Source: Fibrisoma montanum (lineage in GTDB: Bacteria > Bacteroidota > Bacteroidia > Cytophagales > Spirosomataceae). From it: DNA of 64,000 nucleotides. The position numbers were made by a program, and so were the translations under genes. Of the stretch, positions 12,473-64,000 are shown piece after piece (the stretch's first letter is position 1; every line of letters begins with the position of its first letter). Below the pieces are notes generated by a model, which was not told the origin of the DNA, made no database searches, and worked only from the letters and a program-made list of their open reading frames with translations. The stretch is taken from assembly GCF_003583365.1 (NCBI RefSeq), contig NZ_QXED01000013.1, positions 1-64,000 of the forward strand. The letters run 5' to 3'.

Positions 12473-12496
12473 ATGAATTGCCTGAGAAAGCAGACG

Positions 12497-15935: not shown

Positions 15936-16446
15936 GACAGATAAAGCTGGCCTACCCTGAACGGTGGCGGGTCTTGTAGCCAAATATAATTGGATATTGA
16001 GTAAACGGTTACCATTTTGTATTATTTATTAATTATTTAATTTGTATCGTCTATGTAGTTGGAATATCAGGACGGTAACGAAAAGGCCTCCGAACTAGTG
16101 GTTGATGGCTTGTTTTTCCAGGTCGCTCCCTTTGATCTGAAGCCCAGGACGGGCAATTTTTGTAACCGATCGCGTCACTACAGCACCTATGTTGCAGGGG
16201 CTGATCTGAACCGGTGGTAACCGTTTTTAGTTGCCCGATCAGGTACGCTCAGGGTTTGTCCGGACAGGGTCGGAAACCAGTTGGTAACTGTGATCAGCGA
16301 GTTGAAAACAGGTGAGAAAAAGAAGGCAGACCGGCTAACGATCAGCTTTGTAACCGGCATATTTTCAGTGTCAAACGTTTGTTTTTGCCAAAGGTTTGTG
16401 TTGATTTGTATTGCTTAAGGCCAAAACCCCTTTCGACCAATTGCCG
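15936..16446. other. Intergenic region with a widely spaced inverted repeat
   Basis: About 510 nt between divergent genes with no plausible coding sequence. The left quarter is very AT-rich (16014-16050). A perfect 11-bp inverted repeat, AAACGGTTACC at 16003-16013 and GGTAACCGTTT at 16216-16226, is separated by about 200 nt. Two more partial GTAAC-type copies lie between and beyond them (TTTGTAACCG near 16160 and TTGGTAACTG near 16283). They may be binding sites for one regulator; no family can be named. Confidence 0.4.
15981..15988 (-). promoter_or_regulatory. -7 promoter element for the SGNH/DUF11 gene
   Basis: On the minus strand these bases read TATATTTG, a perfect match to the Bacteroidota -7 element TAnnTTTG. 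It lies 45 nt upstream of the SGNH/DUF11 start. No good -33 TTG was found at the right distance, so the element alone supports the call. Confidence 0.5.
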
Positions 16447-16941
16447 ATGAACTTTGACGACGACGATGACGACGACAGTTACATGGACTGGGACGGGTTC
16501 GATGAGGACTATGACCCGGAAGAGGCTCGTCGGGAGATGGAGGCCGAAAACCGGCGGATCAATAATCTGCCTATTCTGCGGAAAGCCAAAGAGTTGATGG
16601 AGCTGACTCAGGCCATTGTCGATACCTTCAACAAGGAAGACGATGTGCTGATGATGCATGAACAGATGCTGGCAAACGCCATGATGCTGGCCCCGAAGAT
16701 CGTTGGTGCCGAGGGGGGCGATTTGTATACCCTTCGGATGGAAAACGCGGTGATTATCAAGATGCACGCCCGGGAGCTACTGGCCCAGACGTCGTACTGC
16801 AAGGCCGAGAAACTGGCTAATCCGGCGTATCTGAACCTGCTGCGCGACGAAATTGAGCAGTTCCGCGTCCTGTTTGTGGATTGGGTGAACAGCTTCGATA
16901 AGGATAACGATGCACCCGACGACTGGGGGCTCTTTTACTAG
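16447..16941 (+). CDS. Conserved-looking acidic helical protein of unknown function
   Basis: A 164-aa soluble protein with an extremely acidic start (a run of seven Asp from residue 3) and a C-terminal part predicted mainly helical (IVDTFNKEDD, MHEQMLANAMM, ENAVIIKMHARELL, LRDEIEQFRVLFVDWVN). No signal, no membrane segment, no enzyme motif. I do not recognise the family; its gene-like codon pattern and the strong terminator 20 nt after its stop show it is real. An upstream TTG start at 16411 is possible but ATG 16447 looks more natural. Confidence 0.7.
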   Translation: MNFDDDDDDDSYMDWDGFDEDYDPEEARREMEAENRRINNLPILRKAKELMELTQAIVDTFNKEDDVLMMHEQMLANAMMLAPKIVGAEGGDLYTLRMENAVIIKMHARELLAQTSYCKAEKLANPAYLNLLRDEIEQFRVLFVDWVNSFDKDNDAPDDWGLFY

Positions 16942-46804: not shown

Positions 46805-47014
46805 CTAAAACGTTTTTTCGTCGCGGATTGCCGGGCATTCGGTATAGCGGGCTTTAGCACTGGTCGAGTCAGCGTATGTAGCCGCCAGGCGGGGTAGTGC
46901 CAGCCGACCTTTGCTTAGCTGAGGCTTAACTTCGATGGTCTCGGTGCAGCCGGTGACCATATGGGAACCGGCCAGCAGAACCACAAAGAGCAGGAGGTGT
47001 CGATACGTTTTAAT
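46805..47014 (-). CDS. Small lipoprotein apparently starting at ATT
   Basis: A 69-aa reading frame that has all marks of a lipoprotein: xKTYRHLLLFVVLLAGSHMVTGC (lipobox VTGC) followed by a polar mature part ending YTECPAIRDEKTF. The codon where Met is expected is ATT (minus strand, 47014-47012), and no ATG, GTG or TTG is found in frame for at least 16 codons upstream. The only in-frame ATG inside is at the lipobox itself and would destroy the signal. Either ATT is used as a rare start, or the start codon is mutated and the gene is silent. Confidence 0.55.
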   Translation of the reverse strand: MKTYRHLLLFVVLLAGSHMVTGCTETIEVKPQLSKGRLALPRLAATYADSTSAKARYTECPAIRDEKTF

Positions 47015-47269
47015 GGCCTTTGAGTGGATGTGTGTTTGACTGCGTTTGTATGGTTCAAAGGTCGGGTGCAGCCGGCAAAACGACTTTCGGATTCAGGACA
47101 GCTATGTTCGGACTTGAGACAGGCTGATAAAAATCGACCGACGAACACAAAGAGGCCAGGTTGCAGAGCCAGAGCCCCTCAAAGGACCAGCCACCGCTTA
47201 CTAAAAATACAAATCAGGATGTAACGATTATTGTACCTTTTACGACAGTACACTCGCCCTGCCTTTCCT

Positions 47270-49255: not shown

Positions 49256-49416
49256 GTCTGTCCCAAACTCAAAGAAAGTTGGCCGAAAATCCAAAGTAAG
49301 TTTTGGCCGATGTGCTGAATTTGGGCGGGTTGGCAGGTGGTTGCTTTGAACGGTTTAGTACACCCGACGATAAAGCCATATCCGTGGTTTGACAATATCT
49401 ATCCTTCCTCTTTATT

Positions 49417-50466
49417 ATGAAACGTGCCACACTCTCAATTTTGCTGATGCTGACGCTGATCAAGGCTATGGCCCAGACTGAACCAAGCGGTCTTCAGCGG
49501 TATGAGGTAGGGGGAGCACTGGGGCGAAATCAATATTTCGGCGATATGCATTGCAGCAGCCCGTATGTGTCGTCCGGGCTGAACATGAGCATCAACGCCA
49601 TGGTCCGGCGACAACTAAACCCGTTTATCAGCCTGCGGGGTAATCTTGTTTTCGGTGCACTTTCGGGCAAGGATGTAGACAACCCGGCTGGACGCTGGGA
49701 CTACCGCCAGATGAATTTTTCGACACCATTGATTGAATTATCGGCTTTGCTGGAGATGTACCCACTAAAAAAGCCGGTTCCTACAGGGTCAATTTTAAGA
49801 CGATTTGCCCCCTATGCCTTCATTGGACTAGGCCAGGTGTATACAAACCCGGCACTAAGTGGAGCGGCTGATCGAACATCGCCCGAAACCCTGGAGAAAA
49901 TAGCCCTTGATGCTGAGCTTAAAAAACGGCTCGCCCCTGTTGTGCCTGTAGGGGTCGGGATTGCGTATGCAATCAAGCAGAAATTAGCTGCTCATGTCGA
50001 AGTCGGTTACCGATTTACAACGTCCGACTATCTGGATGGATTCAGGGAGGCTGGCTATGGGTATTCACAGTACAAAGACAGCTACCTCATTGCCAGCGTA
50101 GGGATAACGTATCGACTGGGAAAAACAAAACCTAACACAGGTGCAATGAAGACTATTGAAATAACGCCTGATGCCGACGGCGATGGCATTGTTGACCCCG
50201 ACGATAACTGCCCCGATGAATTTGGTGACCCGGCTACATGCGGCTGCCCCGATGATGATGGCGACGGTGTGCCGAATGCCTGCGACTGCTGCCCCAATGA
50301 ACCCGGCGAACGGGCGTACCACGGTTGTAGTAAGGCACATAACATTGAATACAACCACATTCGGGTTCCAGTCCAGATGCGTTATTGCCCACTTTGCCCT
50401 CCTGACCAACCGAACGCCAGCCGCACCCGGAAGGAGAAGAAAACGACATTAATCATATCACGCTAA
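49417..50466 (+). CDS. Outer-membrane barrel protein with calcium-type repeats
   Basis: A 349-aa exported protein. Signal peptide (ending AMAQ), then a DUF6089-like outer-membrane barrel: GRNQYFGDMH near residue 35, RRQLNPFISLRGNLVFG, then alternating strands up to SYLIASVGITYRLG. Near the end are thrombospondin type 3-like loops (DADGDGIVDPDDNCPDEFGD and DDDGDGVPNACDCC) with alternating Asp that normally bind calcium. An extra C-terminal tail, rich in Cys and Arg/Lys, is atypical and replaces the OmpA-like domain usually found there. First gene of a tightly spaced four-gene unit. Confidence 0.75.
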   Translation: MKRATLSILLMLTLIKAMAQTEPSGLQRYEVGGALGRNQYFGDMHCSSPYVSSGLNMSINAMVRRQLNPFISLRGNLVFGALSGKDVDNPAGRWDYRQMNFSTPLIELSALLEMYPLKKPVPTGSILRRFAPYAFIGLGQVYTNPALSGAADRTSPETLEKIALDAELKKRLAPVVPVGVGIAYAIKQKLAAHVEVGYRFTTSDYLDGFREAGYGYSQYKDSYLIASVGITYRLGKTKPNTGAMKTIEITPDADGDGIVDPDDNCPDEFGDPATCGCPDDDGDGVPNACDCCPNEPGERAYHGCSKAHNIEYNHIRVPVQMRYCPLCPPDQPNASRTRKEKKTTLIISR

Positions 50467-50483
50467 TCTAACCCACCTACCGT

Positions 50484-51887
50484 ATGAATCTCACCAATAC
50501 AAGTTTATTAAACCTTAATGATCAGCAGCGTAGATCACTGATTGATTCAATCCGCTGTGGGGAGTGTATACTAGTGCTGGGTCCGTACGCAAATCTGGTT
50601 GAGGATGGCCTTGCTCAGCGAGTTCGATTGGCTAATCATCTGGTGAAAGCACTGCCAACGGAACCACCCGTTGACTCACATGAGCAGGATAGTTTCAGTA
50701 GTGTGGTTTGCCGACTTTTACTGGACCGAAACTACAAGCGTGGTGATATTCAGAAAGAAATAACTACGTTTTATCGGCAACAAAGGGGCAGGATTTTACC
50801 TAATAGCCCTTATGATTTAATTCTAAAGTTAGGTTTTCGGACTATTTTCACAACCGACCCGGATTGTCGGCTTATGAAAGCGTTTGATGACCGAAACCGA
50901 AATCCATTGGGCCTATTTTTCACACAGGTTCCTCAGCCTGACATCATTCCTCAACTCAATCCCTCCGATGGTCTTACCGAAGAAACGCCGGTAATCTTAA
51001 ACTTATTTGGATCCACTGATCGCCCAGATTCTCTTGCGATTGGTCCTGAAGAAGAACTGGCTCAATTATATGCGCTTACTTCCGGTGAAATTGGCAACAA
51101 AATAAACCTACGAATTGCTCCTCGGCTTGCAAACTGCCGGTGGTATTTGTTTGTGGGCTACAATTTCAATTCGTGGTCACTGGGGTCCATATTTTACTTT
51201 TTCAGTAAGCTAACGGAAAAGATTCGGGATGCCCGCGTGTTCGGGCTGCATAGTAAGCCTCAGGCGCAGCTAACCGACACAACTGTTGTCTATTATAAAA
51301 ATCTGTTTCCTGTTGAGGGTAATAAGGATGATGTTCGGATTGTGAATTCGGATGCACAAACGTTCTTCACCGAGCTCAATGAACTGGCTGAGCAGTTTCC
51401 TCCGCCCCCGCCCCCAAGTAGTCGTGTGGCATTTATAGTATACCATCCTAAGGACCGTGACATCCTTGAGACCTTCAGGCAATCGATAGAAACTAAATGT
51501 CAAGAATATGATTTGACCGTGAAGTACAGCCAACCCGTTACGTCGTTCGATCGTCCTTTGTCGGATGATCAGATTCACCAGCATGTTTTGAAGGAAGAGA
51601 TCGTCCTATACCTGATTTCTACCAACTGGGAGATCGACTTTCAATATGAAGATTTTCTGGATCTAGCTCAGCAGCGGAATATGGATGCAGGCGTAAAAGG
51701 TGTTCTGTTAGATAATTACAATCTGTTTGGCGCTAATCGGCAGCGGAAACCGGCCTTTGTTGATGGTTCTATTAAATTGCTAAACAAACAGCGGCCATTT
51801 AATTCCCAGACTGACTGTGATAGCCTGATTCAGGAGGTGGATGCTTTTCTGGAAGACATGGAAGACATCGTAAGCACGACCATCTGA
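50484..51887 (+). CDS. SIR2-like and TIR-like domain protein
   Basis: A 467-aa cytosolic protein. Residues 20-295 look like a SIR2-like fold: a first strand/loop CILVLGPYANLVEDG, FRTIFTTDPDCRL where the TTNxD motif is usual, VILNLFGSTDRP where the catalytic His (LHG) is expected, and YLFVGYNFNSWSLGS at the end. The His and the Asn are replaced by Phe and Asp, so NAD hydrolysis is doubtful. After a Pro-rich linker (305-312), residues 313-460 show a TIR-like pattern: RVAFIVYHPKDRDILETF, then EEIVLYLISTNWEIDFQYEDF. Its gene ends 1 nt before the nSTAND ATPase gene. Base composition is AT-richer than the flanks. Confidence 0.68.
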   Translation: MNLTNTSLLNLNDQQRRSLIDSIRCGECILVLGPYANLVEDGLAQRVRLANHLVKALPTEPPVDSHEQDSFSSVVCRLLLDRNYKRGDIQKEITTFYRQQRGRILPNSPYDLILKLGFRTIFTTDPDCRLMKAFDDRNRNPLGLFFTQVPQPDIIPQLNPSDGLTEETPVILNLFGSTDRPDSLAIGPEEELAQLYALTSGEIGNKINLRIAPRLANCRWYLFVGYNFNSWSLGSIFYFFSKLTEKIRDARVFGLHSKPQAQLTDTTVVYYKNLFPVEGNKDDVRIVNSDAQTFFTELNELAEQFPPPPPPSSRVAFIVYHPKDRDILETFRQSIETKCQEYDLTVKYSQPVTSFDRPLSDDQIHQHVLKEEIVLYLISTNWEIDFQYEDFLDLAQQRNMDAGVKGVLLDNYNLFGANRQRKPAFVDGSIKLLNKQRPFNSQTDCDSLIQEVDAFLEDMEDIVSTTI

Positions 51888-51888
51888 T

Positions 51889-53835
51889 ATGCGACGCTAT
51901 CCAGGAATTACGCCGTTTAAGGTTCAGGATGCTCCCGTTTTTAAGGGGCGGGCTACCGAAACGCAGGAGGTTACCAACTTGATTCTGACCCAGAAAACGT
52001 TGGTGCTGTTTGCTAAATCGGGAATGGGTAAAACGTCATTGTTAAATGCGGGCGTTGTACCAGCGTTAAAGCGGTACGGATTTTACTCCATTCCCATTCG
52101 GTTTAACCAGTTTGCTTCCGGTGGGGGCGATGCAGAACAAACAGGACCCATGGCCCGGTTCATAAGCCAGTACCAGCAGGCTTATGATGCATTCAACCGG
52201 ACACGCTCCCGTGCCGAAGCCTTCGCACCTCAGGCAACGCTTCGCGAAGTAGTTAGCAATAACCCGTTCATATTGCGCAGACAGCCACTGATTCCACTGC
52301 TTGTTTTCGATCAATTTGAGGAGTTTTTTCGTACGTATCCCCAACGAGATCAGCGAGTTGCATTTCTGCAACAACTCGCTGAGTTACTCTCTGATACGAT
52401 GCAGCACGCCAATGGCTTTTCCGGCGAGCAAGTATTGGATCATGTAGAGAGTAAGCCTGTGAACGTACGAGTCGTGTTCTCCATCCGTTCAGATATGCTT
52501 AACCTGATGCAGGAAGTGAGTGATTTTCTGCCGTTTGTACTGCAAACGCGTTATGAATTGCTGCCCATGTTACGAAAGCAGGCTGAACAAGCCATACGAG
52601 AGCCGGGACTTGTAGCCGACGGACCATACGAAACAGGGCCTATTACGTTTCCTGATGCGTGCGTAAATGATATTCTGACGGGTGTACAGGATGCGTATTC
52701 TGGCGAAATTGAAAGTTTTCAACTCCAGTTGGTGTGTAGCTACCTGGAAGATAAATACATTGCTGAGGCTGGTGGACCCATTCCGTCGAAGGCCATCACC
52801 GTAAAACAGACCGACTATGGTGGCCTTACAGGCCTTCAAAACATAAACGAAGCGTACTTCTCAAATACAATTAACGCGATTAACGAGCAGCCAAGAACTG
52901 TGATCATGAGCCAGCTTGTTACGTTGCTTAACGATAATGGGAATCGTATCTTAAAAGAGGATAGCGAGTTGGATTTAATGTCTTCTGTAAAGGATAGACT
53001 GGTAGATCATCGGATTCTGAAACGTGACAAGATACAGGGTAATACGTATTATGAGATAAGCCACGACAAGATTGCACTGGGCGTAAAGAAAGAAAAAGAA
53101 AAGTTTGAAGCCGATCAAAAGCTTGCTCAAGAACGTAGTGAAAGAAACAGGAAAATCAGAAACGCAATTATAGGCTTAGGGATATTAACGCTAGTGCTTT
53201 CGTCATTTTTTACTATTGAGATAAACAGCACTAATAAAGAACTTGAAAGAAAGAGCGATTCACTAATCTTGGCCCAAGACTCACTTCAAAAGACGGTTGG
53301 GTTTTTACAGGATACCCGAGATTCTTTAAAAGCCAAGTCTGATACGCTGGAAAAGTATAATAATAAATTAAAGCAGGCCAGGCTCAAGAAAGCATGGAGC
53401 GATTTTGAAAATGCTAAAACGCTCATGAAGGCAAGATTATTTATGGAAGCGAAGAGAACTTTAGATAGCGTAGATGCAGGTACAAATAATGCGAATTTAT
53501 CCAGTTACCATCGGCTCAGAAAGTTAACAGATCAGGCACGCAAGATTTGCGAACAGATGATTCCTGTTCAGAAATTGATGGAGAAGGGAGCCTGCCTGGA
53601 AGGAATGTATTATCTGCGTTGCGCTAATGAGGCTTATGTAATGGCTAACGGTAAACAGAAAAAATTAAAAGGGCGTTTTAAAGCATACTATTTCTCAGAG
53701 AAACAATTAGCTACGCGCCTTCTGCTTACTGATCAGACTACCAGAAGCTACGCTTATTCAGGACTTAATCGAGCTGATTCGCCCATTAAAGACATCAACG
53801 TAATCGAGCAGTCGAAACCCTGTAACTGTAAATAG
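51889..53835 (+). CDS. Membrane-anchored nSTAND1-type ATPase
   Basis: A 648-aa protein. Begins with the nSTAND1 signature YPGITPFKVQDAPVFKGR; Walker A is KSGMGKTS (43-50), Walker B is PLLVFDQFEE (136-145), and the sensor Arg lies in VVFSIRSDM (near 200). A winged-helix region follows (LQLVCSYLEDKY...). Then comes one TM helix (about 425-445), a coiled coil (446-515) and a helical C-terminus that would lie in the periplasm. STAND ATPases are signal-triggered switches of defence and cell death; usually a WD40 or TPR sensor is fused where this one has the TM helix and coiled coil. It lies between the SIR2/TIR and exported-protein genes. Confidence 0.85.
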   Translation: MRRYPGITPFKVQDAPVFKGRATETQEVTNLILTQKTLVLFAKSGMGKTSLLNAGVVPALKRYGFYSIPIRFNQFASGGGDAEQTGPMARFISQYQQAYDAFNRTRSRAEAFAPQATLREVVSNNPFILRRQPLIPLLVFDQFEEFFRTYPQRDQRVAFLQQLAELLSDTMQHANGFSGEQVLDHVESKPVNVRVVFSIRSDMLNLMQEVSDFLPFVLQTRYELLPMLRKQAEQAIREPGLVADGPYETGPITFPDACVNDILTGVQDAYSGEIESFQLQLVCSYLEDKYIAEAGGPIPSKAITVKQTDYGGLTGLQNINEAYFSNTINAINEQPRTVIMSQLVTLLNDNGNRILKEDSELDLMSSVKDRLVDHRILKRDKIQGNTYYEISHDKIALGVKKEKEKFEADQKLAQERSERNRKIRNAIIGLGILTLVLSSFFTIEINSTNKELERKSDSLILAQDSLQKTVGFLQDTRDSLKAKSDTLEKYNNKLKQARLKKAWSDFENAKTLMKARLFMEAKRTLDSVDAGTNNANLSSYHRLRKLTDQARKICEQMIPVQKLMEKGACLEGMYYLRCANEAYVMANGKQKKLKGRFKAYYFSEKQLATRLLLTDQTTRSYAYSGLNRADSPIKDINVIEQSKPCNCK

Positions 53836-53837
53836 CT

Positions 53838-55298
53838 ATGAAAGCGACTCTTTTCTGCTTACAAGTAGTGTTTGGCATGGCTCCGTTGTTCGGATGGTGT
53901 CAGCACAAGCTCATGGGCTCGTTCCAGTCAGATTTTATTGTCCCTAATGGCAAAGAGTCTAACTACCCTAATCTCAATTATAAAAATCGAAATTTATCCT
54001 CAAAGGCAAAAAATTATAACTACTTAGATTCATCGAAAGTTGAGGATCGACTTATTCTAAGTATCGGTAATTTTTTTCGGTCAAAAGTTGCTGGAAATGA
54101 CCTGCTGGATAAATACGATCCCGAAGCAACAGCTATACGAAAGGCCTTACACGAGTTATTAACCGGATATTCAAAATATAAACTGTTGAAAGGCGATTCC
54201 ACTAATTATATTAAAAAAAGCACTGTGTTTCAAGATGCTACGTACGTAGCTGAGCGGCCGGAACCAAAACCGAAAATTAACTTGTCGTTGAATAAAGGTG
54301 CCGGTCAGAATGATCTGCTCACCATACATGAAGTGGGAAAACCGGGATATACCATCAAATTCAGGGGGGACTGTGCATCATCGGTGGATACTTGTCTGAC
54401 ACATTTATTGGCAAAGAATGATAAGTTCATTGCTATTGCGACCCGTGGTCAGCTTCAAGTAAGAAAAAAAGAATCGGGTTGTCTAATTGGAAAAATGGGG
54501 ACTAATCATAGACCTCTAACGTATGCGTTTTCTGATCGTACATCAATGTTGCATGCCATTCATCAGTCGAATCCAGTTGAACTGTTTCTAATTGATACTG
54601 TCGGTAGGCTTACTACTATGAGCCTGCCCGAAAGCCTTATGAGGTCGAATTACCGCATCGATCAAATTTTGCCAGACCACAATCTGTTGGTGACACGACG
54701 TATTTTGAACGGGCAGGCAACAGAGATAGTGATCTTTAATTTAAACGAGACACAAATAGAACGGCAGCAACTTCTCATCAAAACCTTACCTTATGTCGTT
54801 AGTCAATGCCGATTGGAGCCTTCCCGTTCAGACCAGTGGCTATTGGCCGCATACCATCCTGACCAACAGGGTTATCACTTATTCCGTCACCAACTCGACA
54901 CGTTAATAAGCCTAACGGAGTCACTTGTTAAAGAATACGAGTTTGATGCAACTCAGGCCCGAATTCTCGCTTTACAGAATGATGGTACATTGATTGCTTT
55001 TGATCTGGATAATCCTCAAAAGCTGATTCTTAATGTTAAGAACGCTCGTTTTTTCGACTGGCGCAAACAGGATAATCTGATTGTGTACTGGAAGCAGATC
55101 AAGGAAAAAGAATGGGCATTGCACGCGCAAAACATAAACAGTCGGCTGACAAAGCCTAAAAACGGGTTTATCTATGAAACCGATCTTCGGCCTGACGTTC
55201 CTCGGATTAGACTGGAAGGAGATACAGTGCGTTTTGTAGATCGTTTTAATAATACTGATAATTCGGTCAGTATCGCGCGTATACGAATCGATCAATAG
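53838..55298 (+). CDS. Exported protein with propeller-like pattern
   Basis: A 486-aa protein with an N-terminal signal sequence (about 22 residues). The first 150 mature residues are Lys/Asn-rich; the rest has repeated strand patterns (KFIAIATRGQLQVRK, EIVIFNLNETQIERQ, WLLAAYHPDQQGYHLFRHQLD, GTLIAFDLDN, RIRLEGDTVRFVDR), suggesting a six- or seven-bladed beta propeller in the periplasm. Family not recognised. AT-rich base composition. Starts 2 nt after the STAND gene, which normally carries such a propeller itself; it may be the separate sensor module. Confidence 0.6.
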   Translation: MKATLFCLQVVFGMAPLFGWCQHKLMGSFQSDFIVPNGKESNYPNLNYKNRNLSSKAKNYNYLDSSKVEDRLILSIGNFFRSKVAGNDLLDKYDPEATAIRKALHELLTGYSKYKLLKGDSTNYIKKSTVFQDATYVAERPEPKPKINLSLNKGAGQNDLLTIHEVGKPGYTIKFRGDCASSVDTCLTHLLAKNDKFIAIATRGQLQVRKKESGCLIGKMGTNHRPLTYAFSDRTSMLHAIHQSNPVELFLIDTVGRLTTMSLPESLMRSNYRIDQILPDHNLLVTRRILNGQATEIVIFNLNETQIERQQLLIKTLPYVVSQCRLEPSRSDQWLLAAYHPDQQGYHLFRHQLDTLISLTESLVKEYEFDATQARILALQNDGTLIAFDLDNPQKLILNVKNARFFDWRKQDNLIVYWKQIKEKEWALHAQNINSRLTKPKNGFIYETDLRPDVPRIRLEGDTVRFVDRFNNTDNSVSIARIRIDQ

Positions 55299-55300
55299 CG

Positions 55301-56488
55301 TTACCGTTTTTGCCGCATCAGTCGCATCCATTGGTTGTATAGCTCATTACTGAATTCATCCAGCATGTTGGCAGTAACCGGCTCACCAGAAAGGGGGAAT
55401 GAATTAAAGGACCCTGCGGCTGAATCTTGCCAATTACACTCGACAGTGGGTAATACAATGGGTGGAGAGCTTAGTTGCCCTGTGTCGAAACGAGCCTTGG
55501 TTAGGCTGATCACCTGTTCCAGCAAAGGGTTTGTGAGAAAAGCGTCGTTGACTAACAGAAATACAAAGTCGGCCAGATTTAGATTGTCAGTTAGTTGTGA
55601 TGTTCGCTGAGTTGCATCGGTTCGTGAATCGTCCTGCCAGATAGAATCCATTTTTCCATAGAGCCGAAAAGCCACTTGAATCTGGTGAACGAGGGTTTGC
55701 GCTACTTCTTTATCCGCTATCGTATAGGATAGAAAAAACGAGAACGGACGTCCGGCTGCTGATTTGGGTGTTACCCTGTATAGGGCATTAAGTTCGGTGG
55801 ATTTACTAAGAACAGGAGCTTTAGGTGGAATTAGCGTCCAGTTTCGCTGCTCGTCGGTGAGGTCGTCGCGCTTGTGCAGCTGCCACGGAAAATCGGCTGA
55901 CTTCCGCATTGATCCTCCCCGGTGATCATCTGCTAACTGGCCCAGAGGCTGATCAGGATGGTTCTTGAAATAACGTTTTGTAGCTTCAAAGGCGTCTTCT
56001 ACGGTGGTTGATTGATTAATGTCACCAAGGATTTCATAGAATTTCTTGGCAACCAGTACGGCGGTTTTGTCGCTGATTGCTTTACTGGTACCAACCACGT
56101 AGGGAATACCGGCTTGTAGTAAAGCCCGGGCGGTAGTATCCGAACAGCAGCTATTAAGAAAAACGAAGCGCAGTGGTTTGGGTAAGCGTTTAAATAGAGC
56201 ACTCAGATCATCGTTGGCTAGTTGCATCGTGCCACCGGGCCCCTGCATTAATAAACCTTCTTCCGACGAATGGCCAATGTAATGAAGCATGGTGATAGCT
56301 TGACCAGAAGATGTACCGAACAGGTCCCAGAGGGACGGGTAGTCGAGGCTGTTCAGTTCGGATAAGTCAACCAGTTCACCAGCATCATATAAGATCGCTC
56401 CTCGAATTTCGCGCCGTTCACGATCGAGTTGTTTTAAAAAATCAGGAGTTAGATTAGCTGTTGTGATGAGTAGTTTTTCGCTTGCCAT
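55301..56488 (-). CDS. CHAT protease fused to a TIR-like domain
   Basis: A 395-aa protein. Residues 1-200 are a CHAT (caspase-like) protease: His73 in HYIGHSSEEG and Cys114 in VFLNSCCSD, with YVVGTSKAISD and the FYEIL helix after it. Residues 250-390 resemble a TIR domain: PFSFFLSYTIADKEVAQTL, ADFVFLLVNDAFLTNP, and PIVLPTVECNW near the end. CHAT enzymes act as cell-death proteases in several conflict systems and TIR domains may make or sense NAD-derived signals. The gene is convergent with the propeller gene (2-nt gap) and divergent from the GH19/gasdermin unit, sharing a 203-nt regulatory gap. Confidence 0.82.
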   Translation of the reverse strand: MASEKLLITTANLTPDFLKQLDRERREIRGAILYDAGELVDLSELNSLDYPSLWDLFGTSSGQAITMLHYIGHSSEEGLLMQGPGGTMQLANDDLSALFKRLPKPLRFVFLNSCCSDTTARALLQAGIPYVVGTSKAISDKTAVLVAKKFYEILGDINQSTTVEDAFEATKRYFKNHPDQPLGQLADDHRGGSMRKSADFPWQLHKRDDLTDEQRNWTLIPPKAPVLSKSTELNALYRVTPKSAAGRPFSFFLSYTIADKEVAQTLVHQIQVAFRLYGKMDSIWQDDSRTDATQRTSQLTDNLNLADFVFLLVNDAFLTNPLLEQVISLTKARFDTGQLSSPPIVLPTVECNWQDSAAGSFNSFPLSGEPVTANMLDEFSNELYNQWMRLMRQKR

Positions 56489-56632
56489 ATAGATGTCAAA
56501 TAGTACATGCTAAACATAAGTCTAGATTCGATTGCTAAAGCCAATAACTCTGTAAATCTAATTCAACAGTACTTTGGCCAATTTTCGAAGGTTTTTGGCC
56601 GGTTTCCATACGTCTGATCCTGCCAAAGACGC

Positions 56633-56640
56633 TACGTTTG
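56633..56640 (+). promoter_or_regulatory. -7 promoter element before the GH19/gasdermin unit
   Basis: TACGTTTG is a perfect TAnnTTTG element, 51 nt before the GH19 ATG in the divergent gap. A clear -33 TTTG at the right spacing is missing (the nearest T-rich box is at 56603), so the promoter may need an activator. Confidence 0.5.
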
Positions 56641-56691
56641 TTACACGCAAATCGCGGGAAGTCAACCGATTCACCATAATCCACAACAGCC

Positions 56692-57303
56692 ATGTTCCAG
56701 TTCAACGAAAATAAACTGATCGACACGTATCAAAGTCGGTTTGGACGCCTGCATCTGCCAATGGTCCAGGCGCTGGGTTTCCTGAAAGTGCAGGTAGAGA
56801 ACGATGTCCGTTTCTCCGGGTCGGTGAAAGATCGGCAGCAACTGGCCTACTGCCTGGCCACGTTCAAATGGGAAACCGCCCACACCATGCTGCCCATCGA
56901 TGAGTTCGGTTCGGATGATTACTTTAACCGGCGCTACGGGCCACACACCAGGGTAGGCCGGATGTTGGGCAACACGCAGGTAGGCGACGGCGCTCGGTTT
57001 CACGGTCGTGGCTACGTGCAGCTAACGGGCTGGGCTAACTACCAGAGGGCTAGTCAGCGATTTAAGGTCGATCTGATTACATCGCCCGATCTGGCCAAAG
57101 AGCCTAAGCTGGCTTATGAAATTGCTGTTAATGGTATGCGGGAGGGCTGGTTTACCGGTCGTAAACTCGATCAGTTCATTAAAGAAGGCGTTCCACCCGA
57201 ATACGAAAAGGCCCGGTCAATCATCAACGGTACCGATAAAGCCCAGACCATTGCCGATATCGCCCGCCGGTACGATGAAGTCCTCACGGCGGCTTTACGT
57301 TAG
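56692..57303 (+). CDS. Signal-less GH19 chitinase/lysozyme-like hydrolase
   Basis: A 203-aa protein of the glycoside hydrolase family 19 / endolysin type. The catalytic-type Glu lies in FKWETAHTM (Glu61), a second Glu follows in IDEFGSDDYF (Glu71), and the family block FHGRGYVQLTGWANYQ is at 103-118. It probably cuts the glycan backbone of peptidoglycan (or chitin). No signal peptide is visible, so it would stay in the cytosol unless released. No phage structural gene or transposase is nearby. It is first in line before the gasdermin gene (44-nt gap), which suggests a wall-lysing partner of the pore. Confidence 0.88.
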   Translation: MFQFNENKLIDTYQSRFGRLHLPMVQALGFLKVQVENDVRFSGSVKDRQQLAYCLATFKWETAHTMLPIDEFGSDDYFNRRYGPHTRVGRMLGNTQVGDGARFHGRGYVQLTGWANYQRASQRFKVDLITSPDLAKEPKLAYEIAVNGMREGWFTGRKLDQFIKEGVPPEYEKARSIINGTDKAQTIADIARRYDEVLTAALR

Positions 57304-57347
57304 TTTGATTGCTTATCATTGTCGTACACCACAACCCTCCCTTTACC

Positions 57348-58193
57348 ATGAGTTTTCAAATCCGCCTGTGTCGAAACGACACCACGACGTACCTGCGCGA
57401 TACCTTCAAGGCAACTCCGCTGCTGGTACCCGAAGCCCGGGTTAAACCCCTGATGGTAGTTGCCCGACGTAATGCCGACATTCAGTTTCGGGGCGAGCTA
57501 CGCTTCCTGCTCGACGATCCGGACTGGGCGTTCGGCCTGCGCGACGAAGCTGTTTCGTCCGCTAGCCTGGACAAAACCCGTAAGGTCGATGCAGGACTGG
57601 GCCTCCAGATTTTGCGGGGATTTCTGAAAGGCCTGAACGCGGGTCATGCACCGGTGGAGGCATCGCTGAGTGGCGTAAAAACGCTGTCCTTATCTTTTCA
57701 CAACGTACGTCGTCACTTCGCCGATCTCAACGAACTGGGGCTGGCCCTGGCCGGTCGGCGGCTGAACCTGAACCACCCGTCGCTGGGCCTGTTTCGGGGC
57801 GACGACCCGTACCAGATGCTGCTCGTGTCCGATGCCATCGTCAGCAGCGAGTTTTCCATCAACAAAGAGTCGGGTGGAGAAGGCAGCCTGGAAGCCGGTG
57901 TGCCGGCCCTGCACGATTACCTCGCCAAGGCTCAAACCAATCTCAGACGCGTATCAAACACAAAGTCGTCTATTACGTTTGAGGGTGATCAACCGCTGAC
58001 GTTTGCGTTTTCGTGTGTGCGCTTGGAGACCGACCCAGCTACGGGGGCTTTGCAGATTCTGGAAGCGGTCACGCTGCGGGGCGATGGACCGCAGGAATCG
58101 CAGCCGCGCATACTGCTCGACAATGACCTGAACGAACCAGGGCTGCTGGTATTCGACGACGAGCCGGCTACCACAGAGAAATCTGACAAATGA
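57348..58193 (+). CDS. Bacterial gasdermin (bGSDM)-like pore-forming protein
   Basis: A 281-aa protein with bGSDM features: a Cys at position 8 near the N-terminus (palmitoylated in studied bGSDMs), YLRDTF followed by LLVPEARVKPL (residues 25-35), a G-rich turn, an amphipathic strand-rich middle (LSLSFHNVRRHF, MLLVSDAIVSSEFSI), the late strand PLTFAFSCVRL, and a flexible acidic tail of about 25 residues. In known systems a protease cuts the C-terminal tail to free the pore-forming part. A caspase-like gene follows, as expected. ATG 57348 is chosen because it sets Cys8 near the end; an upstream start at 57309 adds 13 residues. No signal peptide or TM helix. Confidence 0.83.
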   Translation: MSFQIRLCRNDTTTYLRDTFKATPLLVPEARVKPLMVVARRNADIQFRGELRFLLDDPDWAFGLRDEAVSSASLDKTRKVDAGLGLQILRGFLKGLNAGHAPVEASLSGVKTLSLSFHNVRRHFADLNELGLALAGRRLNLNHPSLGLFRGDDPYQMLLVSDAIVSSEFSINKESGGEGSLEAGVPALHDYLAKAQTNLRRVSNTKSSITFEGDQPLTFAFSCVRLETDPATGALQILEAVTLRGDGPQESQPRILLDNDLNEPGLLVFDDEPATTEKSDK

Positions 58194-58204
58194 ACTTTTA
58201 GTCC

Positions 58205-58243
58205 TTGATAATCAGTGGTATTATCAATAGGTTTGTTTCAAAC
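58205..58243 (+). promoter_or_regulatory. Near-consensus promoter with palindromic operator before the caspase gene
   Basis: TTGA (58205-58208) and TAGGTTTG (58228-58235) are spaced by 19 nt, an almost ideal Bacteroidota -33/-7 pair. The 8-bp palindrome TTGATAAT (58205-58212) and ATTATCAA (58220-58227) fills the spacer exactly up to the -7 box, so a dimeric repressor could block it. A second small palindrome GTTTG-TTT-CAAAC (58231-58243) overlaps the -7 box and the expected transcript start. ATG of the caspase gene is at 58255. Confidence 0.65.
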
Positions 58244-58254
58244 CCTTTCACACC

Positions 58255-61200
58255 ATGACAACCCCTAACCCGACTTCAACGAAAGCAGATACGCCCCACC
58301 TGTACGCTCTTCTGGTAGGTATCGGCGCGTATAAACAAGTGAAAGCATTGAGCGGTCCGGTCAACGATGCTCAGGCTGTAGAACGGTACATTCAGCAACT
58401 CACCGATTTCAACGTTCATCCGCTTGTCCTGACCGACCGGCAGGCTACTAAAGCGGCTGTTATCGACGGATTTCTGAACCATTTAATTCAGGCCGGACCA
58501 AACGACACGGTCTTGTTTTTCTTTGCTGGTCATGGGACGCAGGAAGATGCTGATCCCGGTCTGTGGCCAACCGAGACCGACAGAAAACTGGAGTCCCTGG
58601 TCTGTTATGATGGCGATGCCGGTAGCCCCTGGAACTACCTCCTGGCCGACAAGGAACTCCGTTACCTGATCGGGAAAGTGAGCGCTACAGGAGCGCACAT
58701 CGCGACGATTTTTGACTGCTGTCATTCGGGCGACAACACTCGTTCGGCTGATATAGTGGCTGAACTGCTCAGTGGGAGAGACGTGCGGGAACGGCAGATA
58801 CAACCGTTTGCCGGTTGGCGTCCCTATGAAGCTTTTTGCTTTCATAATGAATTCTCTGAAGAACTGCTACGGGATCAGGGGATAGGCGTGGTGCTACCGC
58901 AGGGGGCGCACGTGCAGATAGCCGCCTGCCAGTCGGACGAAACGGCTAAAGAAGTAGATGGCGAGGGCGTGTTTACCAAAAGCCTGCTGGCTGTGCTGAA
59001 GGCCTCTCATGGGCAGTTGTCGTACCAGGATCTGCATAACCGCGTTCGGCAGTACCTGCGGTTTAGTTACGTGCAACGGCCAAGAGTGTATACACCGGAT
59101 GAGAAGACAGATGGGTTACTAAACCGGGGTTTCCTGAATCGTCCGGTAGAGACAGGTACCGTAACGGCGTCGATCCTGTATAACAACGAGAAAGGCTGGC
59201 TACTCGATGTGGGCGCTATTCATGGGGTTGGGCAGACAGCCCGCACCATTCGACTTTATGATCCAATCACGCAAACGGCTCATCCGGTCGAAGTTGGTGA
59301 AATTGGCGCTGATTACACCATACTGACTATCGCTGACGATATCCGGCAGCGCCTGGACAAAGCCGTTGTGTACCGGGCTACCGTTGAGGGCCTGCTCACG
59401 CAGCCCATCCGGCTTCACTACAAAAATCACGATGGGCTGAAAAGTGAACTCACCGACTGGCTGGCGTCAACGGATTCGGGGCAACCTGATTCGCTGGACG
59501 GCATCATGATTCTTGAAGACGATGAAAAACAGGCCGATTACACGCTGCATAGCCGGAATGGCCTGTATTATCTCGCACGTCCTTGTGACGAGAACCGACC
59601 GCTGGTTGAACCTATCCGGTCCGATGATCCCGAAAAATTTACGACACTAACCCGTTACCTCAAACAGATCGCGCGGTGGCAATACCTCCGGGACCTGCGT
59701 AATCCGGCATTGGACGAGCCACGACTGAGCGTTTCAATAACGGTTGGCGATAGTGAGCCCGTTTCGGTGACGGGCGCTAACCCTGACCCGGTACCCGTTT
59801 CGTTTACAAAACAGGCCGATGGCACCTGGAGTACGTCGCTGACGATCCGGCTGACGAACACAACCAATCGGCCACTGTTCTGCACCCCTTTGTATCTGTC
59901 GCGGGACTTCATATCAGACCCTACTTATCTATCTAAAATTCATCAACTAATTAAACCGGGTGACAGCATTGAGCTGTCGCAGTCAGATATATATGACTCG
60001 AACATACGCTATAGCCCAATGGGATTTGGGCTGGAAGAAGTAATCCGGCAATACAACTGGCCTAAAGCGACTGAATACTTCAAGCTGATTGTAACGACCG
60101 ACCCGCTTTCTGAGGTAACCCTGAACTTTTTAACGCTCGAAAAGCTTCCGGACCCACCGGTCCTGGTACTCGATGACGATCGGGGTGGATCGAAGCCACC
60201 GTCAACCCGAACGGTTGCGCTTCCACAGTGGAGTACCCAGACGATTACGCTCGATCTGATCAATCCAGAATACAATAAAGTTCGGCTAAACGAACTGGAA
60301 CGCATGCTAGCCGTACCGGAGGATGAGCAACTGGTCGATGACACGGCGATTCGTCTGGAAAAGAACAAGCGGTTTATGATGGCCGATTTTGCGCTTGGTC
60401 TGTACTACGAAACGGATACAACCAACCCCCTCCATCCGACACTTAAGCTGCGCGACGAACTGACCGTGATTCAGCCCGACGGCGAACGGGGCCTGTTCAA
60501 GGATCTGGCGCTGAATCTGGCCAACAAGGCGGCTAACTGGTCCCAGAACCGGCAGTATCGGCAGCGGCTGGTCAGCTATCCCGACGAGCTACGGATCGTG
60601 GCCGAGGGGGATTCATGGTTTCAGTATCCGTTTCTGCTGCGCGACGTAGTCGATTACCTGTCGGGCGTTTACACGGTGTACAGCGTGGCCGCTGCCGGTG
60701 CTACCCTGAAGGACTACCTGAAAGATAGCCGGTTCACCGAAGCGATTAACGCGATAAAGCCGGGTTTCTTTCTGCTCAGTGGTGGAGGGAACGATCTGCT
60801 GGGCGAAGGATTCGCAGAACTGATTGCCGACGTGCCAAACCCTGCTCAGACCGGTCCTGAGCGTTACCTGGCGCATGGGTTTGAGAAAAAACTGACCGAT
60901 ATAGAAGAACACTTCAAACGGATTTTTGAGCTGGTCAGTCTCGCCAATTCGCAGGTGAAAGTACTCGTCCACGGCTACGATTACGTAGTGCCCGCCGGGT
61001 CCCACAAATTGCCGGGCGGTTCGGTGTGGATGGGTAACGTGCTGACGCAGAAAGGTGTCAGTAATCCGGCCGAGCGGGAAGCTATAGCCCGCTACGTGAT
61101 CGACGCCTTCAACGAGCGGCTGCGTGGGGTGGCAGCTGCCTTTCCGAACGTAACGTACCTCGATCTGCGGGGTACCATCCAGCGTACCGAGCGGCTGGCC

Positions 61201-63285
61201 GACTACTGGTACGATGAAATTCACCCGAATGACAAAGGCTTTCTTAGCGTAGCCAACCAATTTGTTAAACAGATCCGACGCTTAAAAGGGGATTCGGCTG
61301 CGGAGTCTGATACTACGTCGTCGGCAGCCGATCGGTGGACCGACGAGTTCCTATGGAGCAAACGTCAGGTGGGTGACCCGCTCGCCGATGGCGTTATCAC
61401 GACGTTGCTGGCTGAGAATCAGAAAGGCGAAGTCGACCAGATCTTTCAGCTGCTTGTGCAGAACCGGCAGTTTCCGAATCCGGCATTCTATAACCTGCCC
61501 GAGCCGGTGCGGAAGGTGGTGGAGAACTATTTTACCGAAACCAGGGCGCTGCCCGACTTCGCGGAGCCGTTCAAGCTCATGACGGCGGCCGACGTGTTCC
61601 GGCAGCACGGGCCCAAAATACTCTTCATCCTGCTGTGTAAGTCCCTGCCGCTGTGCTACACCTGCTGGCGGGGCGCTAAGGTGCTTTATCGTACCGGCCG
61701 GCTGCGTGTGCACGACGGGTCCCTGGATTCGTTTACCCGGCGGCTAATGGAAACGGCGCAGTTTGTGGTGGACATGCTGACCCACGACAACTTCAGGCAC
61801 GACGGTACGGCCATTGTGGCCGCGCAGAAAGTCCGGCTCATGCACGCCATCATTCGCCATTTTGCGCAGGAGCGGAACTGGGATACCGAAACCTATGGAA
61901 TTCCCATCAATCAGGAAGATCAGGTCGGTACGCTGCTGTCGTTCAGTGTTGTTATCATCGACGGTCTGGAGCAACTCGGCATTACCCTCACCCCCGACGA
62001 GCGGGCCGCGTACCTGCACCTGTGGCACGTTGTCGGCCGGATGATGGGCATCGACGAAGACCTGCTGTCGGAGAACGAAGCCGACTGCCGGTTGCTGATG
62101 AGCCGGATTCTGGACCAGCAGGCTGGTCCATCGGTTGAGGGGGCCGCGCTGACCGAGGCCTGTATCGACCTCATGACCGAGCGCATGATGATTAAGCCCC
62201 TGCAACGGTTGTCGCCGTATTTTGTGCGCTTTTTTATCGGCGACAACTACGCTGATATGCTCAGTGTACCTACTGCTGAAGCCGACGAGTCGACGCTGCT
62301 CAAAGCCGTACAGTGGTTCGATCAAAGCATCCGTGATCTGGGCAATAAAAACCGTATTCTGGCGTCGCTGGGCCGAACGTTCAGTCACGGCATGATCCGG
62401 CAGATACTGGCGTTCACAAATGCGGCTAAAAAGGAGCAGTTCTACCTGCCCTCGGCCCTGACCGACCACTGGGACGAAACCGTACTGCCCGACTTCCGGA
62501 TTCCAACGCTTGAACGTATCGACGACGTTATTTTCTATCTCGACAAAGTAGCCCGGCACCTGCGGGCGCAGAACAATCCGATGGGCTATTTCTGCGCGGT
62601 GTATAAACTCGTGACCCAGCGTGTAGCTGAAGGGCTGCGGCTGGGGGTTTTCGAGAATCCGTTGGAAATGGAGCAGGTTGATGTTGGCTTTGGTAACCGG
62701 TACTTCGAAGCCCTGAATCAGTATTTCGACGGCAAGCCGGCTACCGGGCCCTGGCAGGTATCGTTTGACGCAGCTAAATCGCTCATAACTACCAACCAGC
62801 ACATTTTTGTCGCGGCCAATGCCCACATCTCGTTCGATCTGCCCATTGTGGTGGCGGAGGTCTACCGAGGGAAAGATATTACCCGGTTCATGGGTGATTT
62901 TGAGCGCATGAACAAGCTCTTCGACGGTATGTACACCCAGATGAACGATGACATCGGTCGTATTTTCAAACCGTTCGGGCTGGCCGTCGAACACCTGTCG
63001 CAGGAGTTGATAGCGATGGAAAACAAGGTGATGAAAGCCGGCCGTGACCTGGCCTGGGCCAAAAGCCTTGAGCTGCACCAGGCCCGGACAGACAACGAGC
63101 ACCGGCAACTGATCGATGAGCTGGAAATTGAATCGGCAAACCGGGGGCGTATCCTCACCCAGCCCTTTGCGTTGATTGGTACGGTAACCGAAGTCATTGC
63201 TCAACAGGAGTTCGGAACAGTAGCGCATAAAGTAGATGTGATGCTGCGAACGGCTTTATTACCCGTTGTACCCGAGCGCCTATGA
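58255..63285 (+). CDS. Giant caspase-SGNH-Lcp/MpaB-DUF5995 fusion protein
   Basis: A 1676-aa cytosolic protein with several effector modules. Residues 14-300: caspase-like peptidase (C14), catalytic His93 in FFAGHGTQ and Cys156 in DCCHSGD. Residues 300-770: beta-rich region with ARWQYLRDLRNP and Ig-like strands. Residues 779-1010: SGNH hydrolase, Ser787 in EGDSW, the GGGND block (843-847), and Asp987/His990 in DEIHP. Residues about 1110-1320: DUF2236 domain of Lcp rubber oxygenase/MpaB type, with ETAQF, RLMHA (His1197, likely heme ligand) and GIPINQEDQ. Residues 1420-1676: DUF5995-like, with MGYFCAVYKLVTQ and ANAHISFDLP. It likely activates the neighbouring gasdermin; the added lipid- or polyprenoid-attacking domains are unusual. 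Overlaps the next gene by ATGA. Confidence 0.86.
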   Translation: MTTPNPTSTKADTPHLYALLVGIGAYKQVKALSGPVNDAQAVERYIQQLTDFNVHPLVLTDRQATKAAVIDGFLNHLIQAGPNDTVLFFFAGHGTQEDADPGLWPTETDRKLESLVCYDGDAGSPWNYLLADKELRYLIGKVSATGAHIATIFDCCHSGDNTRSADIVAELLSGRDVRERQIQPFAGWRPYEAFCFHNEFSEELLRDQGIGVVLPQGAHVQIAACQSDETAKEVDGEGVFTKSLLAVLKASHGQLSYQDLHNRVRQYLRFSYVQRPRVYTPDEKTDGLLNRGFLNRPVETGTVTASILYNNEKGWLLDVGAIHGVGQTARTIRLYDPITQTAHPVEVGEIGADYTILTIADDIRQRLDKAVVYRATVEGLLTQPIRLHYKNHDGLKSELTDWLASTDSGQPDSLDGIMILEDDEKQADYTLHSRNGLYYLARPCDENRPLVEPIRSDDPEKFTTLTRYLKQIARWQYLRDLRNPALDEPRLSVSITVGDSEPVSVTGANPDPVPVSFTKQADGTWSTSLTIRLTNTTNRPLFCTPLYLSRDFISDPTYLSKIHQLIKPGDSIELSQSDIYDSNIRYSPMGFGLEEVIRQYNWPKATEYFKLIVTTDPLSEVTLNFLTLEKLPDPPVLVLDDDRGGSKPPSTRTVALPQWSTQTITLDLINPEYNKVRLNELERMLAVPEDEQLVDDTAIRLEKNKRFMMADFALGLYYETDTTNPLHPTLKLRDELTVIQPDGERGLFKDLALNLANKAANWSQNRQYRQRLVSYPDELRIVAEGDSWFQYPFLLRDVVDYLSGVYTVYSVAAAGATLKDYLKDSRFTEAINAIKPGFFLLSGGGNDLLGEGFAELIADVPNPAQTGPERYLAHGFEKKLTDIEEHFKRIFELVSLANSQVKVLVHGYDYVVPAGSHKLPGGSVWMGNVLTQKGVSNPAEREAIARYVIDAFNERLRGVAAAFPNVTYLDLRGTIQRTERLADYWYDEIHPNDKGFLSVANQFVKQIRRLKGDSAAESDTTSSAADRWTDEFLWSKRQVGDPLADGVITTLLAENQKGEVDQIFQLLVQNRQFPNPAFYNLPEPVRKVVENYFTETRALPDFAEPFKLMTAADVFRQHGPKILFILLCKSLPLCYTCWRGAKVLYRTGRLRVHDGSLDSFTRRLMETAQFVVDMLTHDNFRHDGTAIVAAQKVRLMHAIIRHFAQERNWDTETYGIPINQEDQVGTLLSFSVVIIDGLEQLGITLTPDERAAYLHLWHVVGRMMGIDEDLLSENEADCRLLMSRILDQQAGPSVEGAALTEACIDLMTERMMIKPLQRLSPYFVRFFIGDNYADMLSVPTAEADESTLLKAVQWFDQSIRDLGNKNRILASLGRTFSHGMIRQILAFTNAAKKEQFYLPSALTDHWDETVLPDFRIPTLERIDDVIFYLDKVARHLRAQNNPMGYFCAVYKLVTQRVAEGLRLGVFENPLEMEQVDVGFGNRYFEALNQYFDGKPATGPWQVSFDAAKSLITTNQHIFVAANAHISFDLPIVVAEVYRGKDITRFMGDFERMNKLFDGMYTQMNDDIGRIFKPFGLAVEHLSQELIAMENKVMKAGRDLAWAKSLELHQARTDNEHRQLIDELEIESANRGRILTQPFALIGTVTEVIAQQEFGTVAHKVDVMLRTALLPVVPERL

Positions 63286-64000
63286 AACACGTTTTCCTGC
63301 GGTTTTTCCTGTTTATAAGCCTCGTTGGGTCACTCAAGGCTGCACCGGTCCGGTTTCGGGATCCGGTGCAGCCTTACGACCTGTTTACGGCGAGTTCGCT
63401 GCTGGAAATACAGGCAGGGAGTGTCTCTATTGACCAATTGCTGCAAAACCCCGGTCGCTACCCGTTCGAACCTGCCCGAAATGAACTGATCAAACCGTAT
63501 GATCGGCAGTTGAGCTATTGGCTGCGGGTTGAGATTACGAACGAAACCGACGAAAACCTGTTCCTGCATTTCGTGTATGCCGGTACGGAGTACATCACCG
63601 TTTACGAAGTGGTCGACCAAAAAGTGGTGGACGTGCACCGGTTAGGTACGCTTCAGCCCGAAACGACATACACCTATCTGAAAAGTAATGAAGTCTGTCC
63701 AACGCGGGTGCGCCGGGGGCAGACTCATACATTCTACGTGTCCATGCAGGGCGTTTATACAACCGCCTGGCCTGTTTTCTGCCGGTCGACGGATAATCTG
63801 CTGAATTACCTGCACCGCACTGATCTGTTTTATGGATTGTATTACGGCTTTATCCTGATCATCATCGTATACAGTCTGATCCTGTACGTCCGACTCCGAG
63901 AAACCGATACGCTGCGCTATGCCATCTGGGTGATTTTTGTAGGGCTGCAACTGGCCTTGTTCCGGGGGCACACCAACGAGTTTTTCTGGCCGTCGAATCC
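63282..64000 (+). CDS. 7TMR-DISM sensor protein (cut by window end)
   Basis: Partial gene; the first 239 codons are visible. Signal peptide (ending LKAAP), a 7TMR-DISMED2-type extracellular beta domain (DRQLSYWLRVEITNETDENLFLHF and a following strand set), then the first TM helices of the 7TMR-DISM membrane module (YGLYYGFILIIIVYSLILYV and the next one). Such receptors are usually followed by a histidine kinase, cyclase or HTH output domain, which lies outside the window. The ATG overlaps the caspase stop (ATGA), so this receptor is co-translated with the caspase and might be its signalling partner. Confidence 0.82.
   Translation, partial: MKHVFLRFFLFISLVGSLKAAPVRFRDPVQPYDLFTASSLLEIQAGSVSIDQLLQNPGRYPFEPARNELIKPYDRQLSYWLRVEITNETDENLFLHFVYAGTEYITVYEVVDQKVVDVHRLGTLQPETTYTYLKSNEVCPTRVRRGQTHTFYVSMQGVYTTAWPVFCRSTDNLLNYLHRTDLFYGLYYGFILIIIVYSLILYVRLRETDTLRYAIWVIFVGLQLALFRGHTNEFFWPSN

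Follow-up and report, generated by a model that had tools for sequence, protein, structure and literature searches.

A 64,000-nucleotide stretch of Fibrisoma montanum DNA (contig NZ_QXED01000013.1, positions 1 to 64,000; hereafter the window) carries on its + strand a GH19-type lysin gene, a bacterial gasdermin (bGSDM) gene and a C14 caspase-like gene, in this order and separated by gaps of 44 and 61 nucleotides (nt). The latter two quite probably belong to a protease-activated bGSDM cell-death system of a known kind, in a multi-domain variant to which gasdermin is an add-on and in whose mechanism the GH19 enzyme has no part. An earlier, sequence-only reading had described the same order, strand and gaps, and its three family calls were each matched by a family profile; what found no support was its proposal that all three genes work together. 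The evidence is computational throughout (sequence, gene order and predicted structure), resting on homologies, active-site residues and presence or absence in relatives; G, L and C numbers denote genomes, loci and contigs of our collection.

The product of the middle gene is a bacterial gasdermin. It scores 182.5 bits against NF051890 (prok_gasdermin; curated cut-off 100), matches the PADLOC bGSDM profile at E 1.7e-69 and the solved bGSDM chains 7n51 and 8sl0 at E about 1e-15. When a model built on 18 alignment rows (mean predicted local distance difference test score, pLDDT, 70.4) was searched with Foldseek, the best match was 7n51, the Vitiosangium bGSDM (E 1.3e-15, TMq 0.72), followed by 7n52 and 7n50, and ranks 1-29 of the 258 matches at E <= 10 were all gasdermin entries or complexes with gasdermin; the structural check suggested by the sequence-only reading thus returned the gasdermin fold. 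The protein is 86% identical to its counterpart in the sister species Fibrisoma limi and is under purifying selection (ratio of nonsynonymous to synonymous substitution rates, dN/dS, 0.109). For the biochemistry of known bGSDMs we draw on Johnson and Kranzusch (2022; PMC9612521). According to this article the majority of bGSDMs have a palmitoylated N-terminal Cys, the cut follows a Leu or an Arg situated about 20 residues before the C-terminal end, Leu and the adjacent Gly are essential for cleavage in one bGSDM, and pores measure 130-190 and 240-330 Å. In the window protein Cys8 aligns with the N-terminal Cys (LC) of 7n51 and is a candidate palmitoylation residue, with Cys in this column in 9 of the 18 aligned bGSDMs. 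A C-terminal tail is present, residues 245-281 being modelled under pLDDT 50, and Arg244-Gly245 is its candidate cut site. The CHAT-paired bGSDM of G050 has Arg247-Gly, and the Arg-Gly found in the tails of all three caspase-paired bGSDMs agrees with the Leu or Arg that precedes known cuts and with the adjacent Gly that one bGSDM requires (PMC9612521).

The caspase-like protease that the sequence-only reading had placed beside the gasdermin was borne out by the C14 profile match, and three further domains which it had not listed follow in the same 1676-amino-acid (aa) chain, namely an SGNH/GDSL hydrolase, a haem-oxygenase-like domain of the latex clearing protein (Lcp) type (MPAB_Lcp_cat) and DUF5995. 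The next gene codes for a seven-transmembrane (7TM) sensor kinase and shares 4 nt with the end of the caspase gene. The C14 dyad residues His93, Cys155 and Cys156 are kept in 14 of 14 rows. With the PADLOC caspase profile the window protein scores 543.7 bits (aa 14-977), the G138 protein 278.4 bits, and the five gasdermin-less copies that were scanned 264.5-292.5 bits. When the linker at aa 301-760 was scanned in 13 members, Pfam had no match at E <= 0.01; its best PDB sequence match has an E of only 0.24, and its model (pLDDT 77.8) gives middling Z scores to Ig-like sandwiches. In the hydrolase domain, the residues that we take to be those of the SGNH blocks are Ser787 (just ahead of the Pfam match), Gly815 and Asp987, present in 14 of 14 rows, His990, present in 13, and Asn846, present in seven (window, F. 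limi, G112, G114, G138, G196 and G125). With Asn846 missing from half of the rows, some copies without gasdermin may have an impaired SGNH domain. It was observed separately that both block III residues, Asn846 and Asp847, are replaced in five gasdermin-less genomes of genus g21 (L080, L082-L085). In the PDB the MPAB domain finds the rubber oxygenase Lcp (5o1m, E 6.9e-17; 5o1m and 5o1l at about 7e-17 to 9e-17), and R1163, T1167, R1194, H1197 and R1201, kept in 18 of 18 rows, map on the 5o1m alignment to Arg164, Thr168, Arg195, His198 and Arg202 of LcpK30, which are haem-site or structural residues (PMC5522427). Against F. limi the dN/dS values are 0.090 (C14), 0.175 (linker), 0.099 (GDSL), 0.075 (MPAB) and 0.051 (DUF5995).

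Gasdermin looks like an optional effector added to an older caspase system. DUF5995 occurs in 25 of 222 genomes of the family Spirosomataceae, and 17 of these 25 loci were viewed (the other eight, those of G048, G058, G110, G117, G126, G127, G158 and G221, have frames of 252-422 aa). MPAB-DUF5995 is followed by a DISM kinase in 15 of the 17 genomes, and the C14-SGNH part stands ahead in 14 of those 15, fused to MPAB-DUF5995 in six (window, F. limi, G112, G114, G184, G185) and as a separate gene in eight; the exceptions are G135, without the caspase at the locus, G209, a 3.2-kb contig ending inside the unit, and G120, which has only a remote DUF5995. Three of the 15 unit loci include a gasdermin, upstream of the caspase in the window and F. 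limi and between C14-SGNH and MPAB-DUF5995 in G138, and the other 12 genomes gave no gasdermin match at E <= 0.001. At the place that gasdermin occupies in G138, five g21 genomes with the split unit have a kinase/LytTR-regulator pair on the other strand (domains checked in L080). A hybrid regulator with the domain make-up of the one in the window lies directly ahead of the caspase in G196, a layout that fits an ancestral order of regulator, caspase and kinase into which gasdermin entered later. Trees were made from the C14-SGNH part (14 rows) and from MPAB-DUF5995 (16 rows, without the two G184/G185 paralogues). On each the gasdermin label needs two changes, forced by well-supported branches, and one change sufficed in 0 of 200 bootstrap trees; gasdermin, which stands at two different positions, has therefore been gained or lost at least twice. 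It should be noted that shuffled labels need about as many changes (means of 2.8 and 2.9), so that the three gasdermin rows say little on clustering and only a single gain without loss is excluded on these trees. As a separate observation, G184 and G185 have a second, divergent MPAB-DUF5995 gene beside a C14-nSTAND1 fusion and a methyltransferase (L094 34-10392 and L095 5139-15998; domains checked in L094), with a nearby frame resembling the caspase linker and SGNH parts.

Comparison with F. limi removes the GH19 gene from the conserved locus. By blastn against the F. limi locus (L013), window positions 46875-49327 correspond to 7491-9953 and 57323-64000 to 9976-16651, each about 80% identical, and the 7,995 nt (about 8.0 kb) between them, 49328-57322, are replaced by 22 nt. 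The right break point falls 19 nt past the GH19 stop and 25 nt ahead of the gasdermin start. Regulator, gasdermin, caspase and kinase are thus common to both genomes, the F. limi regulator (L013 7860-9878, 85% identical) lying directly upstream of bGSDM, and GH19 plus five other genes are missing from the F. limi locus: an outer-membrane-protein (OMP)-like gene, a SIR2_2-like gene, an unknown gene, nSTAND1 and, on the - strand, CHAT-TIR. The G+C content (GC) of this block is 46%, against 55% for the window. A DNA search for the block in the 222 family genomes, with two candidates scored per genome, found only its GH19 portion, in six genomes, and four further genomes with fragments of 33-50 nt. 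The four co-directional, tightly packed genes at window 49417-55298, in an AT-rich part, encode an OMP beta-barrel-like protein, a SIR2_2-like protein, an nSTAND1 protein that includes a hydrophobic stretch and an unknown protein whose N-terminus is hydrophobic, and are possibly a separate conflict system.

The neighborhoods of other gasdermins give the same picture. Searches with NF051890 in three draws found gasdermin in 11 of 222 family, 14 of 390 order and 4 of 395 phylum genomes, that is 23 distinct genomes including that of the window (G000), of which 15 pass the curated cut-off and 8 do not. All 22 other neighborhoods were viewed, five of them (L029, L034, L036, L038, L078) being on short contigs or having less than about 2 kb between gasdermin and contig end, and by tblastn with the GH19 protein none had a match beside gasdermin (E <= 1e-3; best E in a further set 0.36). 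A profile of seven GH19 orthologues detected relatives in 5 of the 23 gasdermin genomes (G000, G115, G138, G172, G188), adjacent to gasdermin solely in G000; in G138 the two genes are on contigs C1 and C11, respectively, and in F. limi (G115) the remote GH19 relatives lie at a distance of about 770 kb and on a different contig. The sequence-only reading had taken GH19 as a working third member and had suggested looking for the GH19-bGSDM-caspase order in relatives; its own refuting condition, GH19 absent or far away in homologues, is what the F. limi locus and the 22 other genomes, five with short flanks, show. A holin-endolysin-like pair of GH19 and bGSDM is accordingly not supported as a conserved module, since no hydrolase was found beside the pore gene in these genomes. 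The GH19 gene looks like a later neighbour that arrived with a separate 8-kb block and is no part of the mechanism. Three other gasdermin loci were recorded in passing. In L039 9802-16127 (G259) the gasdermin, whose frame has a stop inside in that assembly, lies beside a C14-TIR fusion and a TIR-nSTAND1-propeller protein in an inflammasome-like layout. In L033 6943-10537 (G172) it directly follows a leucine-rich repeat (LRR)-Roc-COR protein which has no CHAT domain by Pfam; its C-terminal end matches the window CHAT region (tblastn E 5.6e-7), which makes it a likely Roc-COR-CHAT fusion. At G141:C1:1614409-1614839 the gasdermin match is in two pieces, one with a stop, and is apparently decayed.

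The properties of the GH19 enzyme itself do not point to the gasdermin pore. It is barely over the cut-off of PF00182 (26.2 against 25.5 bits), matches the phage endolysin family phrog_181 at E 6.6e-29, and finds endolysin and GH19 chains (7r6s, 4ok7) in the PDB; as possible catalytic residues Glu61 and Glu71 are invariant in seven rows, and the best solved-chain match spans aa 89-148 only. A scan of the N-terminus revealed no signal-like hydrophobic stretch, so that a signal-less wall hydrolase of GH19 type, as first described, was recovered. A search with the protein found matches in 38 of the 222 family genomes at E <= 0.001. The closest orthologues, six at 69-72% identity, all belong to genus g21 and lie elsewhere, not beside gasdermin; a gasdermin match was obtained in only one of these six genomes. 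All six adjoin an ABC-type ATPase gene (a label from P-loop reading), and tblastn for the other block genes found none within about 10 kb of them. Read from the ATG aligned with the window start, the six have no hydrophobic leader (within the first 40 residues the mean hydropathy over 15 residues peaks at 0.76-1.01). Two of them, L070 and L072, have an open frame that extends upstream of this ATG, and the longer L072 frame has a moderately hydrophobic stretch (1.79), so that a leader is conceivable in that copy. Leaderless orthologues in mostly gasdermin-less genomes indicate that the missing signal is a trait of the GH19 family and no hint of exit by gasdermin; it does not imply an enzyme waiting in the cytosol for the pore.

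Several points weigh against the interpretation given here. The genus Fibrisoma is represented in the collection by two genomes, that of the window and F. limi, and the 8-kb difference would be an insertion in the window lineage, or else a loss in F. limi, the direction being suggested by composition and relatives. The GH19 gene is intact, on the same strand as bGSDM and 44 nt upstream of it, and its GC of 54% is host-like and unlike the rest of the block. As the block cuts bGSDM off from the DNA that used to lie upstream, bGSDM might now be expressed by transcription running on from GH19. Between the candidate cut site and the C-terminus there are 35-37 residues, compared with the published ~20. 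Finally, gasdermin and caspase are not necessarily transcribed together, because the caspase gene has its own promoter-like sequence. The pattern TTG-N17-22-TANNTTTG, from the Bacteroidetes-type promoter consensus, has four matches on both strands of the window, and the one in the bGSDM-caspase gap has an F. limi counterpart in the same position (L013 10859-10889); the caspase dose could thereby be set apart from that of gasdermin.

A tie between GH19 and gasdermin specific to this lineage is on balance distinctly improbable, and the same holds for its functional form, in which the lysin was recruited as a wall-cutting partner leaving through the pore: we consider this very doubtful. Adjacency, common direction, the short gap, the leaderless and endolysin-like enzyme, the width of published pores (130-330 Å) and the occasional presence of endolysin-like genes near bGSDM operons (PMC9612521) speak for it, but so striking a neighbour, one among many possible and picked post hoc, is weak evidence, and the syntenic F. 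limi locus, the 22 other gasdermin genomes and the leaderless orthologues in six genomes, five of them gasdermin-less, all argue against it. It is somewhat less improbable, though still unlikely, that GH19 belongs with CHAT-TIR, nSTAND1 and the SIR2_2-like gene in a defence-like cassette of its own, inserted next to the gasdermin operon. These genes share one block that is missing from F. limi and low in GC, with a divergent region of 203 nt between CHAT-TIR and GH19; however, GH19 itself does not share the low GC, its six orthologues have no other block gene nearby, and the whole block was not found at DNA level in the 222 genomes.

The remaining alternative concerns the protease. The giant caspase might not act on gasdermin at all, its SGNH and Lcp-like domains being the real effectors and bGSDM being cut by another protease such as CHAT-TIR. 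The unit without gasdermin in 12 of 15 loci would suit this, as would the seven other bGSDM loci with a neighbour bearing a Pfam CHAT domain and the distance of only about 860 nt to CHAT-TIR. We nevertheless give this explanation a low probability, as bGSDM lies directly beside the C14 protein in three of three gasdermin-bearing copies despite their differing positions, and the F. limi locus lacks CHAT-TIR.

In the preferred reading, a caspase-activated gasdermin system, a signal received by the 7TM sensor kinase or the hybrid regulator would raise or activate the caspase protein, whose C14 domain would cut off the C-terminal tail of bGSDM, perhaps at Arg244-Gly245; the freed pore domain would then insert in the inner membrane and the cell would be killed. 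The SGNH hydrolase, the Lcp-type domain, which would presumably bind haem, and DUF5995 may be further effector or sensor parts, and an anti-phage role of the whole may be supposed. As pure speculation, the SGNH and Lcp-like domains could be lipid-directed effectors, or the haem domain a redox sensor. The bacterial gasdermin-protease systems already known (Runella, Vitiosangium, Bradyrhizobium, Lysobacter; PADLOC bGSDM/caspase) share the bGSDM fold and the adjacent C14 protease with the window, whereas here, unusually, the protease is fused to SGNH, Lcp-like and DUF5995 domains, is followed by a 7TM sensor kinase, and also exists in units without gasdermin. With Lcp and the DUF2236 rubber oxygenases (5o1l, 5o1m) the MPAB domain has in common the Pfam family and the five haem-site or structural residues, but it stands within a caspase fusion and no secretion signal was seen. 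The GH19 enzyme resembles phage GH19 endolysins (phrog_181; 7r6s, 4ok7) in the core motif region, in being leaderless and in its length of about 200 aa, yet it represents a chromosomal family of Spirosomataceae genomes, and no phage genes were noticed around it. The sequence-only reading knew of no described system of this layout, but the lysis idea was already in print: mimicry of holin/endolysin by gasdermin and endolysin was proposed in 2022, with lysozyme or amidase genes sometimes near bGSDM operons (PMC9612521). Those operons are alike in combining gasdermin with a nearby wall hydrolase gene, and differ in that the window has a hydrolase of GH19-like type whose position is not conserved.

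The coordinates of all features are collected in Table 1. In the CHAT-TIR product the TIR_2 match stays below the cut-off at 17.1 bits.

Table 1. Features in and around the gasdermin locus (positions in the window)
Feature	Position	Strand	Basis or remark
Hybrid two-component regulator: two receivers, kinase, AraC-type helix-turn-helix	47231-49255	+	domain scan
7,995-nt block not in the F. limi locus	49328-57322	.	blastn break points
CHAT-TIR gene, divergent from GH19, within block	55301-56488	-	PF12770 1.8e-06; PADLOC ThsB-like 3.7e-05
Leaderless GH19/phage-endolysin-like enzyme, 203 aa	56692-57303	+	PF00182, phrog_181, PDB 7r6s, 4ok7
Bacterial gasdermin (bGSDM), 281 aa	57348-58193	+	NF051890, PADLOC bGSDM, PDB 7n51/8sl0, model and Foldseek
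Promoter-like sequence TTG-N20-TANNTTTG in bGSDM-caspase gap	58205-58235	+	pattern match
Multi-domain caspase-like protein, 1676 aa	58255-63285	+	Pfam, PADLOC
C14 caspase domain, aa 17-279	58303-59091	+	PF00656 4.2e-22
Linker region, aa 301-760	59155-60534	+	no known family; beta-rich by prediction
SGNH/GDSL hydrolase domain, Pfam match aa 796-995	60640-61239	+	PF13472 9.8e-12
MPAB/Lcp (rubber-oxygenase-like) domain, MPAB_Lcp_cat, aa 1153-1352	61711-62310	+	PF09995 8.1e-24
DUF5995 domain, aa 1422-1637	62518-63165	+	PF19458 4.1e-49
7TMR-DISM sensor histidine kinase, start of 707 aa	63282-64000	+	continues past the window to 65405 of contig C4 (L027 8282-10405)

With these results an attractive but probably accidental gene trio can be struck from the list of gasdermin lysis modules. 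It is possible, although we put this tentatively and at somewhat less than even chances, that Spirosomataceae possess a caspase-centred death or stress system built from the 7TM kinase, C14-SGNH and Lcp-DUF5995, with gasdermin as an exchangeable part; we found none described in the literature. In its boldest and wholly speculative form the Lcp-like domain would attack polyisoprenoid lipids, e.g., the undecaprenyl wall carrier, and SGNH would attack acyl lipids, and if this were true wall and membrane would both be hit without any endolysin. A haem-oxygenase-like domain tied to a caspase would, if true, be an unexpected link of oxygen or redox state and lipid oxidation to regulated death in bacteria. 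The gasdermin-plus and gasdermin-minus versions of one caspase operon occur naturally, and may reveal the role of the caspase where there is no pore, and the way in which a pore is added.

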